Part shown: piece by piece, positions 38,286 through 45,203 of the stretch
Numbering within the stretch: position 1 is the stretch's first letter
Layout of the letters: the number at the start of each line of letters is the position of its first letter
Virus record (IMG/VR): IMGVR_UViG_3300045131_002929
Location: 82,618-146,617 of that record
From: a virus
Strand: one strand, 5' to 3'
Length of the DNA stretch: 64,000 bases
Program-made: the position numbers and the translations under genes
Notes under the pieces: model-generated
Database searches by the model: none
What the model was told of the DNA's origin: nothing
Seen by the model: the letters and a program-made list of their open reading frames with translations, nothing else

Positions 38286-41200
38286 ATGGCGGAACCCAAG
38301 CAAGAGCTGCCCGGGCTTGTCGGCCTGAACGACTACGACGCCCGCCGCAAGCTCATATTCGACTACGCGCTCGAGGGCGTCAAGACCAAATTCCCGGTGG
38401 AGAACACCCAGGTCAGACTGAAGGTCGACAACCTGGCGTACGACGACGATAAGAATTTCACGCCGATGGACCAGAAAGAGGCGCTGCTCAGCGGCGGCTC
38501 GCTGGGGCGCAAGCTGAAGGGCAACTGGGTTCTCGAGGATCTGAAGACCGGCGAAGTGCTGGGCCGGACCTCCAAGAAGACCATAGCCAACATCCCATGG
38601 CTCACCGACCGCGGAACTTTCATACGCAACGGCTCCGAGTCGAGCATCGTCAACCAGATGCGGCTGGTGCCCGGCGTCTTCGTCAAGAACACGGAGGACG
38701 GCAGGGTGGAGACCCATGTGAACGTCAAGCCCGGCACAGGCCATATGTTCAAAGTGTCGATGGACCCGGCCGATCCAGTGTTCGAGGTGATGGTCAAAGG
38801 CCGTAAGATCAAGATGTACCCGCTGCTCAAGGCGCTGGGGGTGCAGGACGCCGACATGGAGGCCGCGTGGGGCACCGAGATCCTCGACAAGAACCGCAAG
38901 CGCGACGACACGCGGTCGGCGGTGTCCGCCGCGCAGACGTTCGGCGCTTTCCGCAGGATCAACAAAACGGCGGACGAGGCCCCGAAGCCGCCGGCGCCGG
39001 AGCAGCCGGAGCTCGGCATAGAGGACGTGGCCGCCGCCTTTCAGAAGATGGAGCTCGACCCTGAGTCGGTCAGCTCCACTCTCGGCAAACCCTACGCCAA
39101 CGTGTCGCCGGCGCTGCTGCTCGACGCCACGAAGAAGATGATCCTGCTCAACAGGGGCATGGCCGAGGCCGACGACCGCGACTCGCTGGAATTCCAGCGG
39201 GTACACATGGCGCATGACTTCATCAAGGAGCGGATCGTCAAGGATTCCGGCGGCATGATCTCCAAGATGTTGTGGAAGGCCACCGCGAAGCGGTCGCCGG
39301 ACGCCATACCGGGCGGTGCGCTGGACAAGCATGTCGACGCCCTCTTCAACTCCGGTGGGCTCACCCAGTACGTCGAGGAGATCAACCCGCTGGATCCCTA
39401 CGACCAGGCGCAGCGGCTGACTCGGCTCGGCGAGGGCGCGCTGGGCGACGCCGTGCCCGACGAGGCGCGCGCAGTGCAGCCCACCTTCCGCGGCTACGTG
39501 GATCCGATACGCAGCCCGCAGAGCTCGGCGGTAGGCCTGGACATGCGCATGGCCCACGGCGTGAAGGTCGGAGCCGACGGCCTGCTGTACAGGGAGATGG
39601 TCAACGCCAAGACGGGCGCCGTGGAGTGGGTCAGCTCGACCAAGGCGGCGCGTTCCGTCATAGGCTTTCCGGAGGCCCTTAAAAGCAAAGACGACTATGT
39701 CCCGGCCACGGTCAAGGCCGAGGGCCTGCAGTATGTGCATAAGGGCACGGTGGACTACGTGATGCGGAGCCCCGGCGACCTTTTCTCGACAATAAGCAAT
39801 CTAGTGCCGATGGTGTCCGGGACGAAAGGCCAGCGGCTGCTCATGGGCGCCAGCTACCACCTGAGCGCGCTGCCGCTGCTGCACCGGGAGGCGCCGCTGG
39901 TCAGATCGGCGCTGCCCGACGGCTCGGATTCGCACAAGGCGCTGGCGCCTTACGCCGGCGTGGTCAGGGCGTCCGAGCCCGGCTTCGTGGAGAGCGTGGG
40001 CAAGGAGTCCATAAAAATCAAAGGCAACGACGGCAAGGTCAAAGAATACCCGCTGTACCACAACTTCCCTTTCGCCCGCAAATCCAGCATGTCCAACTCG
40101 GCGAGCGTGGAGAAGGGCCAGGCCGTCAAGACCGGCGACCTGCTGGCCACGAGCAACTTCTCCGACAAGAAGGGCGAGGTGGCCCTGGGTTTGAATCTGA
40201 GATGCGCGTACATGCCTTACAAAGGCTACCTGCACGAGGACGCCATAGTAGTCTCCGAGTCGGCGGCTAAAAAGCTCACGTCCGAGATGATGACGTCCGT
40301 CAAGATGCGCGACTCCGAGGGCGTGGAGCCTGGCCTGGCTTCGCACATGTCCAGCTTCCCCTCGGCGTTCAACGAGGCGCAGAGGCAGACCATAGGTCCC
40401 GACGGGCTGGTGAAGGTCGGCACCGTCGTCAGGCCGGGCGACCCACTGATCCTGGCCGTGAAGCGGCAGGCGCCGACGGTCGGCTCCATGGGGCGCAGGC
40501 TGACCACCGACCACGCCGTGACATGGGACCACCATGACGCCGGCGTCGTCACGGACTCCCGCAAGACCAAGGAGGGATGGCGCGTGCAGGTACGGGCCAA
40601 CTCCGCCGCGCAGCCGGGCGACAAACTTTGCTATTCGGACGACACCGAGATGCTCACGTCGCGGGGATGGAAGCGCGTCTCCAGCATTGACACTGCCGAC
40701 TATCTGGCTTCCAGGACCGAGGCCGGCGAGCTGGAATACGTGCAGCCGATGGCTATAGTGGACTACGAGTACGAAGGGCCGATGCACCTGGTGGAGACGA
40801 CGCAGGTGTCGCTGATGGTCACGCCCGAGCACAGCCACCTGGCCAAGCGGCGCGGCGCGGACGCTTTCGAGCTCATCCCGGCGGCCGAGCTGTTCGGAAC
40901 CAGATACAGGCTCAAGAAGGACGCCAAATGGAAAGGGTCTTCGCCTGAGTACGTGGACATGCCCGCCTACACGAGAAAAGCAGGCCAGGGCGGCGCGGGC
41001 GAATTGCTCGTGAAGGGCCGCAGGCTGAGTGTGGACGCCTATATGTTCCTACTAGGAGCCTACCTTTCAGAGGGTAACTGCTTCGCCTACGACGGCAACT
41101 ACGGCATAGAGATAACGCAGATCACCGAGCCCAACCGGAGCGACATGCTCGCCAAGCTGAGGGAGTTGGGGATCAAATTCAACGAGGTTAACAATAAGAC

Positions 41201-44200
41201 GAAGGTACGGCTGTACGGGAAGGACCTGGCGCTGCACTTCGAGCAGTTCGGCCGCTCGCACGAGAAGTTCATACCCGACTGGGTCTTCGACTGCGCCAAG
41301 CAGGACCTGGAAACGCTTTATGAGTGGCTGATGTGGGTCGACGGATGCCGCGTATCTACAAGCCACTCGTACTGCACGACATCCGAAAGACTGGCAGGCG
41401 ACATCCAGCGGCTCTGCCTGCACATAGGCCTGGCCGGCACGTTGAAGCGCAGAGACGCGACAGTGGGCGAGATCAAAGGTAAAACTTATGCTCTCAGGCC
41501 GCGGTACGACATCTCGATATACAGACAGAAGCTGGAGCCCGAGATCAACCACGGGCACTGCAAGCGCCAGAAAGGCCAGCGCGAGGAGTGGGCGGCCTAC
41601 TCGGGCCGCGTGTACTGCCCATCACTGCCGAGAAACCACACCGTGTATGTGCGGCGCAACGGCAAGACCTGCTGGTCGGGCAACTGCGGCAGGCACGGAA
41701 ATAAAGGTGTCATAGGGCTCATACTCCCGGACGAGCAGATGCCGAAGGACGCGCAAGGCAGGCCGCTGGAGGTTCTGCTCAACCCCTACGGCGTATCCGG
41801 CCGGACGAATTCCGCGCAGATGATAGAGGCCGCGCTGGGCAAGGTCGCGGCCAAGACGGGCAGGCCCTACGTCATGCCGCTGTTCGGCGACGATCCGGAC
41901 GGCTCGCTCATCAGTTTCGCCAAGGCCGAGCTGGCCAAGGCCGGCCTGCGGGACAAGGAGGACGTGTTCGACCCTTCGCTGAACAAGAATTTGAAAGACG
42001 TGTTCGTCGGCAGCCTTTACATGCACAAACTGCAGCATACGGCCGAGGCCAAGGCTGGCGGGCGGTCGTTCGGCGGATACACCCAGGACAAGCTGCCTTC
42101 CACTGGCGGGCATGACGGTGGTAAGCGTATTGGTAGTATGGAATGCGGGGCAATGTTCTCGCATGGCGCCATGGAGAATCTGAAGGACATGAAGCTGATC
42201 AAAGGCCAGGAGAACTACGACTACTGGCGCGACGTCAAGCTAGGCCGGACGCCGGTCATGCCGCGCGGCAGCTTCCTGTATGACAAATTCAGGGCGCAGA
42301 TGCGGTCGGCCGGCATTAACCTGGAGGACCGCGGCGCGAAGACGCATATATTCGCGATGACGAACGACCAGGCCAAAGAGCTTACGCAGGGCCGCGAGGT
42401 CCAGAACACGGACACCTACGACGCCAAGAAGTTCACGCCGATAAAAGGCGGGATGTTCGACGAGGCGCTGACCGGCGGCGCTGAAGGCAATCTGTTCGCC
42501 ATGGTCAAGCTGGACGAGCCGGTTCTGAACCCGATCATGGAGGATTCGGTACGGCGCATACTCGGCGTCACCATCAAGGATCTGGAGGCGCTGGCCTCCG
42601 GCGACAAGCCCTACAAGGACATGTACGGCGGCAAAGCCTTGAAAGCCAGGCTCGCGGACGTCAATCTGGACATGGAGCTGCTGAAGGCCCGCAACGCTGC
42701 GAAAGGCTCTTCCGGCGCCACGCGCGACGCGGCCGTCAAGAAGATAAGAGCCATAATGTCGATGAAGGAGCATGGCGTTCGGCCGCAGGATTTCATGATG
42801 GACGCCGTGCCCGTGCTGCCGCCGTCGTTCCGGCCGATAACCACGATGGACGGCGAGAACAAGGCCGCCGACGCCAACTACATGTACCGCGAGCTCATGT
42901 TCGCCAGGAACGACCTGCGCGACGCGGCCGCCATACTGCCCGACAAGGATCTGACCGACGCCCGCCGCAAGGTGATAGGGTCGTACAAGTCGCTCGTGGG
43001 CCTGCAGGACACCGACAACGCGGAGCTGTCCGACAAGAAGGTCGGCGGCATACTGGCCACCGTCTTCGGCAAGAGCTCGCCCAAAGTCGGCCAATTCCAC
43101 CGGCGCATGATAGGCATGTCGCAGGATCTCACCACCCGCGCGCCGATCATACCGGATCCGACGCTCCGGGTGGACCAGGTCGGCCTGCCTTTCAACCGCG
43201 CGTGGGAGCTCTACGAGCCTTTCGTCGTCAGGCGGCTCGTGCGCGGCGGCATGCCGGCCACGCAGGCCGCGAAGGCCGTGGCCGACCGCACGGGCCAGGC
43301 CGAGGCCGCCCTGCAGGAATGCGTGCGCGAGCGGCCGGTCATGATAAACAGGGCGCCCACCATGCACAAGCACAGCATAGTGGGCATGTGGCCGCTGCTG
43401 GTCAAGGGCGACTCCATGAAGGTGCCCAACGGAATCCTGGCCCCTATGGGGGCTGACTATGACGGCAACTGCGCCGACTTTAACACAGAACTTAAATTAA
43501 GATTATCAAAGTCCGCGCTTGAGACCTTCGCCGGTCTAGGGTACATTGTCGGTGTCGATGGGACACTAACAAAGGAGACCTGCATGCAGACGGCGGACAC
43601 AAAGGTGGCGATCAAGGCCGAAGGCGTGGTAGCTACCACGCGTATAGGGGAATTCCCCCGCGCTGGCGTACCTGGCAAGGACAGGAACGGGGCGGACGTG
43701 TACGAGGTTCCGGCAGGCGTCGAGGTTCTGACTCTCGACCCGGCTACGCTGAATCCTATATTCTCCGAGGTGACCACGTTCACGGAGGAGAAAGACTGCC
43801 CGTGCGTCGAAGTCGCAACCGACACGCAGTGCGTCATAGTCAGCGACAACGAGTCGCTGTGCGTGTTCGACCACGCCTCGGGCGCGCTCTCGAAGATGGC
43901 GCCGAAGTCTTCCGTGGGCATGTTCTCGCCTTCCGTGCGGGCCATGACCACCGGCGAGGACAAGCACTCCAGGGATCTAGGGTGGTGGGTAGGCGCCTTC
44001 GTGTCGGACGGATGGGTGTCTGGAAATTATGTCGGATACGCCAAGTCCGAGAAGGTTAAAAGGGACGAGTTCGTGCGCATCACCAGGGAGCTGGTGCACG
44101 ACAACTTCAACAGCCGAGAGCACGCCGCCTCCAAGGGCGTCGATAAACTCGGCGACAGCGTTAAACTGCATTTGAACGGCCGCGAGCTGGTCGACGCCGT

Positions 44201-45203
44201 GCGTGGCATGGGTTTCGTGGAGGACGGGCCGGATAGACAGGCTCTCCGCAAGCGCATACCGCCGAAAATGATCTTCGAGGGTTCGGACGAGTTCGCCTGG
44301 GGGTTGTTGTCCGGATTGCTGGACGGGGACGGTACGGTGGCCGTCAACATGCACACCGGCAAGCCCAGGTACACGCTGCGCTTCAGCACCTCGAGCAAGA
44401 GCCTGGTGGAGGGGGTGCGCGCGCTTTGCTGGCGCCTCGGGCTGCGCTGCTGCGTCAGCACCACCCCGCCCAGGGGGCATAGCAAGGAGGCGTACGTCGT
44501 GCTTCCCTCCGTGGTCGACGTACGGCCGCACGCCGGCAAATTAAGCTGCGTCGGGGCTTTAGAGCGCGAGAGGGTGGCAGGCCTGGCGGCGGCCACACTG
44601 CGCCAGGACATCAGGGACTACATACCGCTCACGCTCGATGAGGCGAAGAACTTGAAAATCAGGGCAAAGGATCTGGCCGAGAAGGCGGTGGTGTCGGCGC
44701 TTGATAAAAGGAAAGCCACGCCTTGGTTGAACAGGCAGTATCTAGCCAGGTTGATCGCCGGCGACTTCGCGCTTGAGAAGGCCTTCGAGGCCCGCATGAA
44801 TCCGCGGATACGCTGGGAGCACATAGAACGAGTGACAGACGCCGGCCGACGGGACGTGTACGACTTCGGCGTTCCCGGCTCCAAGGTGTTCGCCGTCGAC
44901 AAGGGCCTGATCATCTGGGACACGCTCACCATCCATGTGCCAGTGTCTGACCTGGCCGTCAAAGAGACCGTGCGCAAGATGATGCCGAACAGGATGCTGC
45001 TGTCCGGGCGCGATTTCAAGCTCACGTACAAGACAGGCCACGAGTACGTGCACGGGGCCTGGCTGGCCACGAAGCCGCCGAAGGAAGGCAAGGCCGTCGA
45101 GTTCGACACCGCCGCCGACGCGAAGGCGGCTTTCCGCGACGGCAAGATAGATGTGGACACGCCTATAAGAATTCGAAGCAGGGACATAGGGGGTGCCCGG
45201 TGA
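38286..45203 (+). CDS. Multisubunit-type RNA polymerase, beta fused to N-terminal beta-prime, two inteins
   Basis: The 2305-codon frame encodes one chain. The beta part includes LHEDAIVVSES near residue 650 and GDKL-CGRHGNKGVIG, split by intein 1. The beta-prime part includes the G-RRMIGMSQDLTTRAP region, INRAPTMHKHSIVGMWPLLV near 1690, and GADYDG, the counterpart of NADFDGD that holds the catalytic Mg ion, split by intein 2. Removal of both inteins leaves about 1469 residues. The chain ends at a point like E. coli beta-prime ~540, so bridge helix and trigger loop must be encoded elsewhere. Placement among virion genes suggests a packaged polymerase for early transcription, as in phiKZ-like phages. 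The stop overlaps the next GTG. Confidence 0.88.
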   Translation: MAEPKQELPGLVGLNDYDARRKLIFDYALEGVKTKFPVENTQVRLKVDNLAYDDDKNFTPMDQKEALLSGGSLGRKLKGNWVLEDLKTGEVLGRTSKKTIANIPWLTDRGTFIRNGSESSIVNQMRLVPGVFVKNTEDGRVETHVNVKPGTGHMFKVSMDPADPVFEVMVKGRKIKMYPLLKALGVQDADMEAAWGTEILDKNRKRDDTRSAVSAAQTFGAFRRINKTADEAPKPPAPEQPELGIEDVAAAFQKMELDPESVSSTLGKPYANVSPALLLDATKKMILLNRGMAEADDRDSLEFQRVHMAHDFIKERIVKDSGGMISKMLWKATAKRSPDAIPGGALDKHVDALFNSGGLTQYVEEINPLDPYDQAQRLTRLGEGALGDAVPDEARAVQPTFRGYVDPIRSPQSSAVGLDMRMAHGVKVGADGLLYREMVNAKTGAVEWVSSTKAARSVIGFPEALKSKDDYVPATVKAEGLQYVHKGTVDYVMRSPGDLFSTISNLVPMVSGTKGQRLLMGASYHLSALPLLHREAPLVRSALPDGSDSHKALAPYAGVVRASEPGFVESVGKESIKIKGNDGKVKEYPLYHNFPFARKSSMSNSASVEKGQAVKTGDLLATSNFSDKKGEVALGLNLRCAYMPYKGYLHEDAIVVSESAAKKLTSEMMTSVKMRDSEGVEPGLASHMSSFPSAFNEAQRQTIGPDGLVKVGTVVRPGDPLILAVKRQAPTVGSMGRRLTTDHAVTWDHHDAGVVTDSRKTKEGWRVQVRANSAAQPGDKLCYSDDTEMLTSRGWKRVSSIDTADYLASRTEAGELEYVQPMAIVDYEYEGPMHLVETTQVSLMVTPEHSHLAKRRGADAFELIPAAELFGTRYRLKKDAKWKGSSPEYVDMPAYTRKAGQGGAGELLVKGRRLSVDAYMFLLGAYLSEGNCFAYDGNYGIEITQITEPNRSDMLAKLRELGIKFNEVNNKTKVRLYGKDLALHFEQFGRSHEKFIPDWVFDCAKQDLETLYEWLMWVDGCRVSTSHSYCTTSERLAGDIQRLCLHIGLAGTLKRRDATVGEIKGKTYALRPRYDISIYRQKLEPEINHGHCKRQKGQREEWAAYSGRVYCPSLPRNHTVYVRRNGKTCWSGNCGRHGNKGVIGLILPDEQMPKDAQGRPLEVLLNPYGVSGRTNSAQMIEAALGKVAAKTGRPYVMPLFGDDPDGSLISFAKAELAKAGLRDKEDVFDPSLNKNLKDVFVGSLYMHKLQHTAEAKAGGRSFGGYTQDKLPSTGGHDGGKRIGSMECGAMFSHGAMENLKDMKLIKGQENYDYWRDVKLGRTPVMPRGSFLYDKFRAQMRSAGINLEDRGAKTHIFAMTNDQAKELTQGREVQNTDTYDAKKFTPIKGGMFDEALTGGAEGNLFAMVKLDEPVLNPIMEDSVRRILGVTIKDLEALASGDKPYKDMYGGKALKARLADVNLDMELLKARNAAKGSSGATRDAAVKKIRAIMSMKEHGVRPQDFMMDAVPVLPPSFRPITTMDGENKAADANYMYRELMFARNDLRDAAAILPDKDLTDARRKVIGSYKSLVGLQDTDNAELSDKKVGGILATVFGKSSPKVGQFHRRMIGMSQDLTTRAPIIPDPTLRVDQVGLPFNRAWELYEPFVVRRLVRGGMPATQAAKAVADRTGQAEAALQECVRERPVMINRAPTMHKHSIVGMWPLLVKGDSMKVPNGILAPMGADYDGNCADFNTELKLRLSKSALETFAGLGYIVGVDGTLTKETCMQTADTKVAIKAEGVVATTRIGEFPRAGVPGKDRNGADVYEVPAGVEVLTLDPATLNPIFSEVTTFTEEKDCPCVEVATDTQCVIVSDNESLCVFDHASGALSKMAPKSSVGMFSPSVRAMTTGEDKHSRDLGWWVGAFVSDGWVSGNYVGYAKSEKVKRDEFVRITRELVHDNFNSREHAASKGVDKLGDSVKLHLNGRELVDAVRGMGFVEDGPDRQALRKRIPPKMIFEGSDEFAWGLLSGLLDGDGTVAVNMHTGKPRYTLRFSTSSKSLVEGVRALCWRLGLRCCVSTTPPRGHSKEAYVVLPSVVDVRPHAGKLSCVGALERERVAGLAAATLRQDIRDYIPLTLDEAKNLKIRAKDLAEKAVVSALDKRKATPWLNRQYLARLIAGDFALEKAFEARMNPRIRWEHIERVTDAGRRDVYDFGVPGSKVFAVDKGLIIWDTLTIHVPVSDLAVKETVRKMMPNRMLLSGRDFKLTYKTGHEYVHGAWLATKPPKEGKAVEFDTAADAKAAFRDGKIDVDTPIRIRSRDIGGAR
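40629..41684 (+). other. Intein 1 in RNA polymerase beta (GDKL/CGRHGNKG site)
   Basis: Residues 782-1133 (352 aa). It begins with Cys (CYSDDTEMLTSRGW), has block-B-like MVTPEHSHL, LAGLIDADG-type helices near FLLGAYLSEGN and LYEWLMWVDG, and ends GKTCWSGN followed by the +1 Cys of CGRHGNKG. The penultimate residue is Gly rather than the usual His. Splicing restores a universally conserved beta motif. Judged by motifs it should be active and mobile. Confidence 0.9.
43470..44921 (+). other. Intein 2 in RNA polymerase beta-prime catalytic motif, atypical junction
   Basis: Residues 1729-2212 (484 aa). It begins with Cys directly after GADYDGN, includes LAGLIDADG-like helices near VGAFVSDGW and LLSGLLDGDG, and ends with an F-block DVYDFGVPGSKVFAVDKG followed by LIIWD and the +1 residue Thr. 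Thus His-Asn of ordinary inteins is replaced by Trp-Asp. A second Cys-start-like segment (CMQTADTKVAI) lies about 46 residues into the element, so the exact N-boundary is not certain. The first 40 bases are strikingly AT-rich. See findings for the consequence at the catalytic Asp triad. Confidence 0.8.

Follow-up and report, generated by a model that had tools for sequence, protein, structure and literature searches.

Canonical inteins carry a Thr-x-x-His motif in block B, a His in block F and a His-Asn pair at their C-terminal end. A terminal Asp is an accepted variant of the intein end, and Asp-terminal inteins are regarded as class 1 variants in which the third step is cyclisation of the Asp, "although other mechanisms are possible" (PMC4031507). 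The Asp triad in the DxDGD loop of multisubunit RNA polymerases has been described as absolutely conserved, and in YonO, a single-chain relative of these enzymes, changing all three Asp residues to Asn abolishes extension (PMC5467207). Despite this described conservation, a mobile element encoding Asn at the third position of the triad has spread through phages, as set out below.

The DNA examined in this study (the window, 64,000 nucleotides) lies inside a viral record of 146,617 bases, and all coordinates given for it are window positions on the plus strand. An open reading frame at 38286-45203 encodes a 2305-aa fusion of RNA polymerase beta with the N-terminal part of beta', interrupted by two inteins; it matches the Pfam families RNA_pol_Rpb2_6, Rpb1_1 and Rpb1_2 as well as NCBIfam rpoB/rpoC models, and a later part of beta' is encoded in another region of that record (~22.3-24.0 kb, minus strand). 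The intein in the beta part (40629-41684; GDKL/C...SGN/CGRHGNKG in the translation) looks ordinary. More intein sites are present in the phage polymerase genes of L006 (4893-5306 and 6858-8000) and L003 (5802-6896), with junctions reading PE/C...CGN/S in beta and RIG/C...VSN/S in beta'. The other intein of the window interrupts the beta' catalytic NADFDGD loop, downstream of the Rpb1_2 match, and the translation reads ...LAPMGADYDGN-CADFNTELKL...FAVDKGLIIWD-TLTIHVPVSDLAVKE, bearing out the original prediction of an Asn-Cys junction at the start and a Trp-Asp/Thr junction at the end. The N-extein ends in GADYDGN (43449-43469), where an Asn codon (AAC, 43467-43469) stands in for the third catalytic Asp. 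Read in the canonical register, the intein extends over 43470-44921, from Cys1 (43470-43472) to Asp484 (GAC, 44919-44921), and the C-extein (44922-45203, read TLTIHVPV) begins with Thr(+1) at 44922-44924. Block G ends in Trp-Asp (44916-44921) in place of His-Asn, and in all ten members of the clade described below an aromatic residue (Trp, Tyr or Phe) precedes the Asp. A normal His-Asn boundary, which had been raised as a way out of the anomaly, was sought with an intein profile and was not seen; the terminal Asp aligns exactly with the terminal Asn of other inteins (intein profile, DnaB intein blocks F and G).

When databases were scanned with alignments that comprised the window intein and its relatives, the signature turned up in nine more independent lineages (L084, L091, L092, L094, L095, L097, L098, L101 and L104), the window being the tenth. 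All ten read D[FY]DGN/C at the start and [WYF]D/T at the end, and every relative returned by one scan with the block B peptide alone, which holds no junction residue, had this signature as well. Because four junction residues recur in ten lineages, the signature of the window reflects neither chance nor assembly error. Nine of the lineages have open frames of 484-507 aa, and the mini-intein L095, which has no endonuclease domain yet keeps the signature, has one of 290 aa; identity to the window intein is 29-41%. The codons vary across the ten members (AAC in six and AAT in four for the Asn; GAC in eight and GAT in two for the terminal Asp) while the residues do not, so both residues appear to be held by selection. 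In the intein tree the clade with Asn at -1 is monophyletic (99/96), and the only site at which it has been seen so far is the catalytic loop of beta' (DxDGD^T), in one phage group. The window intein had no match in the phage-isolate collection. Two members, L097 and L098, combine a phage-type polymerase with this intein on contigs binned as Lentisphaera and Thermoplasmata genomes, and these contigs are probably misbinned or integrated phage.

The insertion has the attributes of an intein, being in frame in a conserved protein, missing from relatives, and endowed with a Hint fold and blocks A, B, F and G; Pfam, profile and model agree on a Hint fold with a LAGLIDADG endonuclease, and the LAGLIDADG_3 domain itself lies at 44301-44492 (Pfam, E 8.9e-13). 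An AlphaFold model of the window intein (pLDDT 78, falling to ~40-50 at the junctions) matches intein and homing-endonuclease structures, the best being the TliVMA intein (7qss, E 1.8e-19), and a model of the L095 mini-intein also matches solved inteins (Foldseek). The active site is remodelled. Block B (43842-43856) reads Ser-Asp-Asn-Glu-Ser in place of Thr-x-x-His, with the Glu codon at 43851-43853, and is SxNES in 10/10 clade members. Block F (44862-44885) has Asp at F:4 (44862-44864) and Lys (44883-44885) at the usual His position, which is Lys in nine members and Gln in L104; blocks F and G were placed in register through their profile alignment with the DnaB intein. Among the inteins compared at this loop, both catalytic His positions are replaced (B10 His to Glu, block F to Lys) in the Asn(-1) clade alone, so the chemistry of the clade probably differs. 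With respect to the recognised types, the window intein has the class 1 nucleophiles at residue 1 and +1 and lacks the block B Thr-x-x-His and the His-Asn end; its Cys1 and Thr(+1) do not fit class 2 (KlbA type, Ala1 and Cys+1), and its Cys1 and F:4 Asp do not fit class 3. It agrees with the Asp-terminal inteins in having Asp at the canonical Asn position (profile and clade alignments), and it is not a naturally split intein, as it occupies one open frame in the window, with an internal start. A block A beginning at that internal Met (MQTADTKV) was considered and dropped, since relatives have a normal block A at Cys1 (CVDYDSEI, CLDFDTEI).

Several other inteins occupy the same loop. The L009 intein resembles the window intein in its insertion loop, intein motifs and Thr(+1) but is canonical, with Ser1, a TEDH block B, a His-Asn end and DGD at -1. 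Ten sister lineages (L020, L128-L130 and L134-L139) have Asp at -1 and a terminal Asp, with Ser, Cys or Ala as residue 1 and a block B that is mostly SxDHS. A further clade of fifteen in the tree has Asp at -1 and a Ser-Asn end, and its residue 1 is hypervariable (Tyr, Leu, Asp, Lys, Gln, Phe and others). A clade of inteins without a conserved N-terminal nucleophile and with a Ser-Asn end, Thr(+1) and Asp at F:4 was seen in L112-L118, L121, L123, L125-L127, L143 and L145; by these residues its members fall outside the definitions of class 2 and class 3, and the Asp at -1 might take part in their chemistry. Split inteins also occur at this loop (L003, 9783-9999; L028, 10420-10584), with an N-part of ~21-25 aa and a non-nucleophilic residue 1 (Tyr, Leu). 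L003 has a stop before the internal Met position, and L028 has a stop, a promoter-like TTGACA-16-TATAGT (sigma-70-like) and a ribosome site between the halves; both are split by sequence because the stop precedes the internal start. Asp-terminal inteins, which are rare at other sites, are common at this one loop. Across the inteins compared here, Asn(-1) occurs only where the terminal residue is Asp, and the change from Asp(-1) to Asn happened once, together with the change of His to Glu in block B; since the Asn arose once, its correlation with Glu and Lys represents one evolutionary event. The idea that the terminal Asp compensates for Asn(-1) was weakened by the ten Asp/Asp sisters: because Asp-terminal inteins with a DGD flank share the site, the terminal Asp need not be a compensation.

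The intein-less relatives indicate where the Asn came from. The beta' tree held 65 distinct sequences, 53 of them with an empty intein site, and all 53 read DGD at the loop. Intein-less relatives with DGN, which according to the original prediction would make the Asn an ancestral feature of the polymerase, were looked for, and there were none among these 53. Among the closest intein-less relatives, L004-L006 read LDFDGDTMTIHVP, and Salmonella phage Arash and Vibrio phage D181 read AADYDGDA. The residue after DGD is Thr in nine and Ala in 42 of the 53 empty sites, and the +1 residue is Thr in all ten clade members. The hosts of the clade are scattered among intein-less phages, with at least four changes forced by well supported branches and six by parsimony, and the two trees together show a single origin of the intein followed by repeated horizontal gain. 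Since the scattered hosts have intein-less relatives that are all DGD, and gains number at least four, the Asn arrives with the intein and is not ancestral. Repeated gain among DGD phages also makes it unlikely that the insertion is crippling. The close empty relatives with which L084 is nested, L085 and L088, allow only one placement of its inserted DNA, between the Gly and Asp codons of the empty site, and this leaves every host residue unchanged.

The explanation that we tentatively favour is that of a functional Asp-terminal intein which splices in the canonical register and whose Asn(-1) is turned into Asp, so that the mature polymerase would carry DGD. We infer from the sequences that the intein is excised and the exteins ligated by steps of the following kind. 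Cys1 would take the N-extein as a thioester and Thr(+1) would then take it as an ester; the bond after the terminal Asp would be cut, giving DGN-T as the first product; and Asn(-1) would become Asp during splicing or right after it. One possible route is that the side-chain amide of Asn(-1), near the Asp-Thr bond in the branched intermediate, takes over the role of the missing terminal Asn, in which case imide hydrolysis would yield Asp at -1 of the polymerase and an amide on the intein. The canonical register is consistent with Cys1, the terminal Asp and Thr(+1), which are fixed in 10/10 members, and with the position of that Asp at the canonical Asn. Continuity also favours it, because the Asp(-1) sisters keep this register and would give DGD-T without an extra step. 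In addition, the mature enzyme is not expected to be a triad mutant, given at least four gains in DGD phages and ten lasting lineages. Against conversion, free deamidation at an Asn-Thr bond is slow and yields iso-Asp. In the limited literature searched, no report of an intein converting an extein Asn was found, and an incomplete literature search likewise returned no description of Asn at -1 of the polymerase triad. Conversion was absent from the options of the original prediction and fits at least as well as the two that remain of them, a non-standard boundary and a tolerated Asn.

The first of these two, which we consider possible but on the unlikely side, displaces both junctions by one residue upstream (43467-44918), so that the excised segment runs from Asn to Trp, Tyr or Phe and the host Asp starts the C-extein. 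Removal would then be scarless and give DGD-T directly, and the X-Asp bond could open by an N-to-O acyl shift onto the Asp side chain. The unique fit of the L084 insertion between the Gly and Asp codons speaks for this reading; relatives with DGD/S...xD/T junctions, which give the same product either way, could have been a stepping stone, and the restriction of Asn(-1) to inteins with a terminal Asp is in keeping with it. However, it requires new chemistry at both junctions together, Cys, the terminal Asp and Thr occupy canonical catalytic positions, and none of the ten Asp/Asp sisters departs from Asp(-1), a constancy not expected of a residue that had become part of the intein. Thus, the insertion footprint favours the displaced register, and the aligned catalytic residues together with the Asp/Asp continuity favour the canonical one. 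It is rather probable that one or the other form of host-editing splicing operates here, either coupled Asn-to-Asp conversion or a shift of both junctions by one residue, and either form would fall outside classes 1, 2 and 3.

The second remaining option, canonical splicing to DGN-T in a polymerase that works with Asn as its third ligand, is improbable. Of all the readings it needs the least elaborate chemistry, splicing of Asp-terminal inteins has precedent (PMC4031507), and the other two Asp residues of the triad are intact in every clade member. Against it stand the uniform DGD of the empty relatives, the need for each of the at least four gains to have created a triad mutant in a DGD phage, and the dead triple Asn mutant of YonO (PMC5467207), although data on the third position only were not found in the literature searched.

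The internal start bears on a further reading. Within the intein, a Shine-Dalgarno sequence (AAAGGAG, 43571-43577) lies six bases before an ATG (43584-43586) at a Met that is invariant in the clade; its duplex energy is -8.7, and as good a score is reached at only one of the 75 other in-frame ATGs of the polymerase reading frame. All ten members have this Met, 20-39 residues downstream of Cys1 and usually with a strong Shine-Dalgarno sequence, which is missing in L094, L097 and L098, and 14 sites at the Met position outscore the 713 in-frame ATGs located elsewhere in these genes (Mann-Whitney p ~1e-4). A Shine-Dalgarno sequence and ATG inside the intein were also seen in L092 (9088), L095 (9115), L104 (7989), L020 (10525) and L027 (10447). 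In L095, which lacks an endonuclease, expression of that enzyme alone cannot explain the internal start. GC content drops to 48% between Cys1 and the internal Met, compared to 63-65% around this segment, and a similar drop is seen in most relatives, in agreement with the AT-rich start noted earlier. An intron or bypass element at this AT-rich start was rejected: Rfam gave nothing above threshold for L003 and nothing credible for the window, and the frame stays open in all clade members. If no splicing took place, the internal start would give a separate chain, freed by C-terminal cleavage, and a two-chain polymerase. The invariant Met with its mostly strong Shine-Dalgarno sequence, present also in the mini-intein, and the related L003 and L028, truly split at the loop (L028 with the promoter-like sequence), point in this direction, but the frame is open through the junction in 10/10 members, Cys1 is fixed, and a break within the catalytic loop itself would be unusual; we regard this as quite improbable. 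A dead or decaying intein, the "defective" option of the original prediction, is very improbable, for although the canonical His residues of blocks B and F and the His-Asn end are all lost, long open frames persist in ten divergent lineages, including the endonuclease-less mini-intein, with the signature and new residues fixed at the lost positions.

The clade is thus apparently a working, new variant of protein splicing and not a broken one. A DGD product would mean that inteins can carry out side-chain chemistry on the host protein or splice at junctions that have moved, in either case a catalytic mode new to them and potentially useful as a tool; a DGN product would mean that a residue regarded as absolutely conserved can be dispensed with. 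Inteins of archaeal and eukaryotic RNA polymerases likewise sit at highly conserved polymerase sites near the active centre; the new ones reported in PMC1635734 are in second-largest subunits at other sites, with no such Asn/Asp junction described in the part consulted. The Asp-terminal intein of Amitai et al. 2004 (via PMC4031507) also has a nucleophilic residue 1, a terminal Asp and a nucleophilic +1 residue; in contrast to it, the inteins described here have Asn at -1 where the host needs Asp, an SxNES block B and a block F Lys, and have so far been seen at the polymerase catalytic loop only. Class 3 inteins, which are of phage origin, are similarly phage-borne with an altered active site, but they have no residue 1 nucleophile and carry Cys at F:4, whereas the present clade has Cys1 and Asp at F:4.
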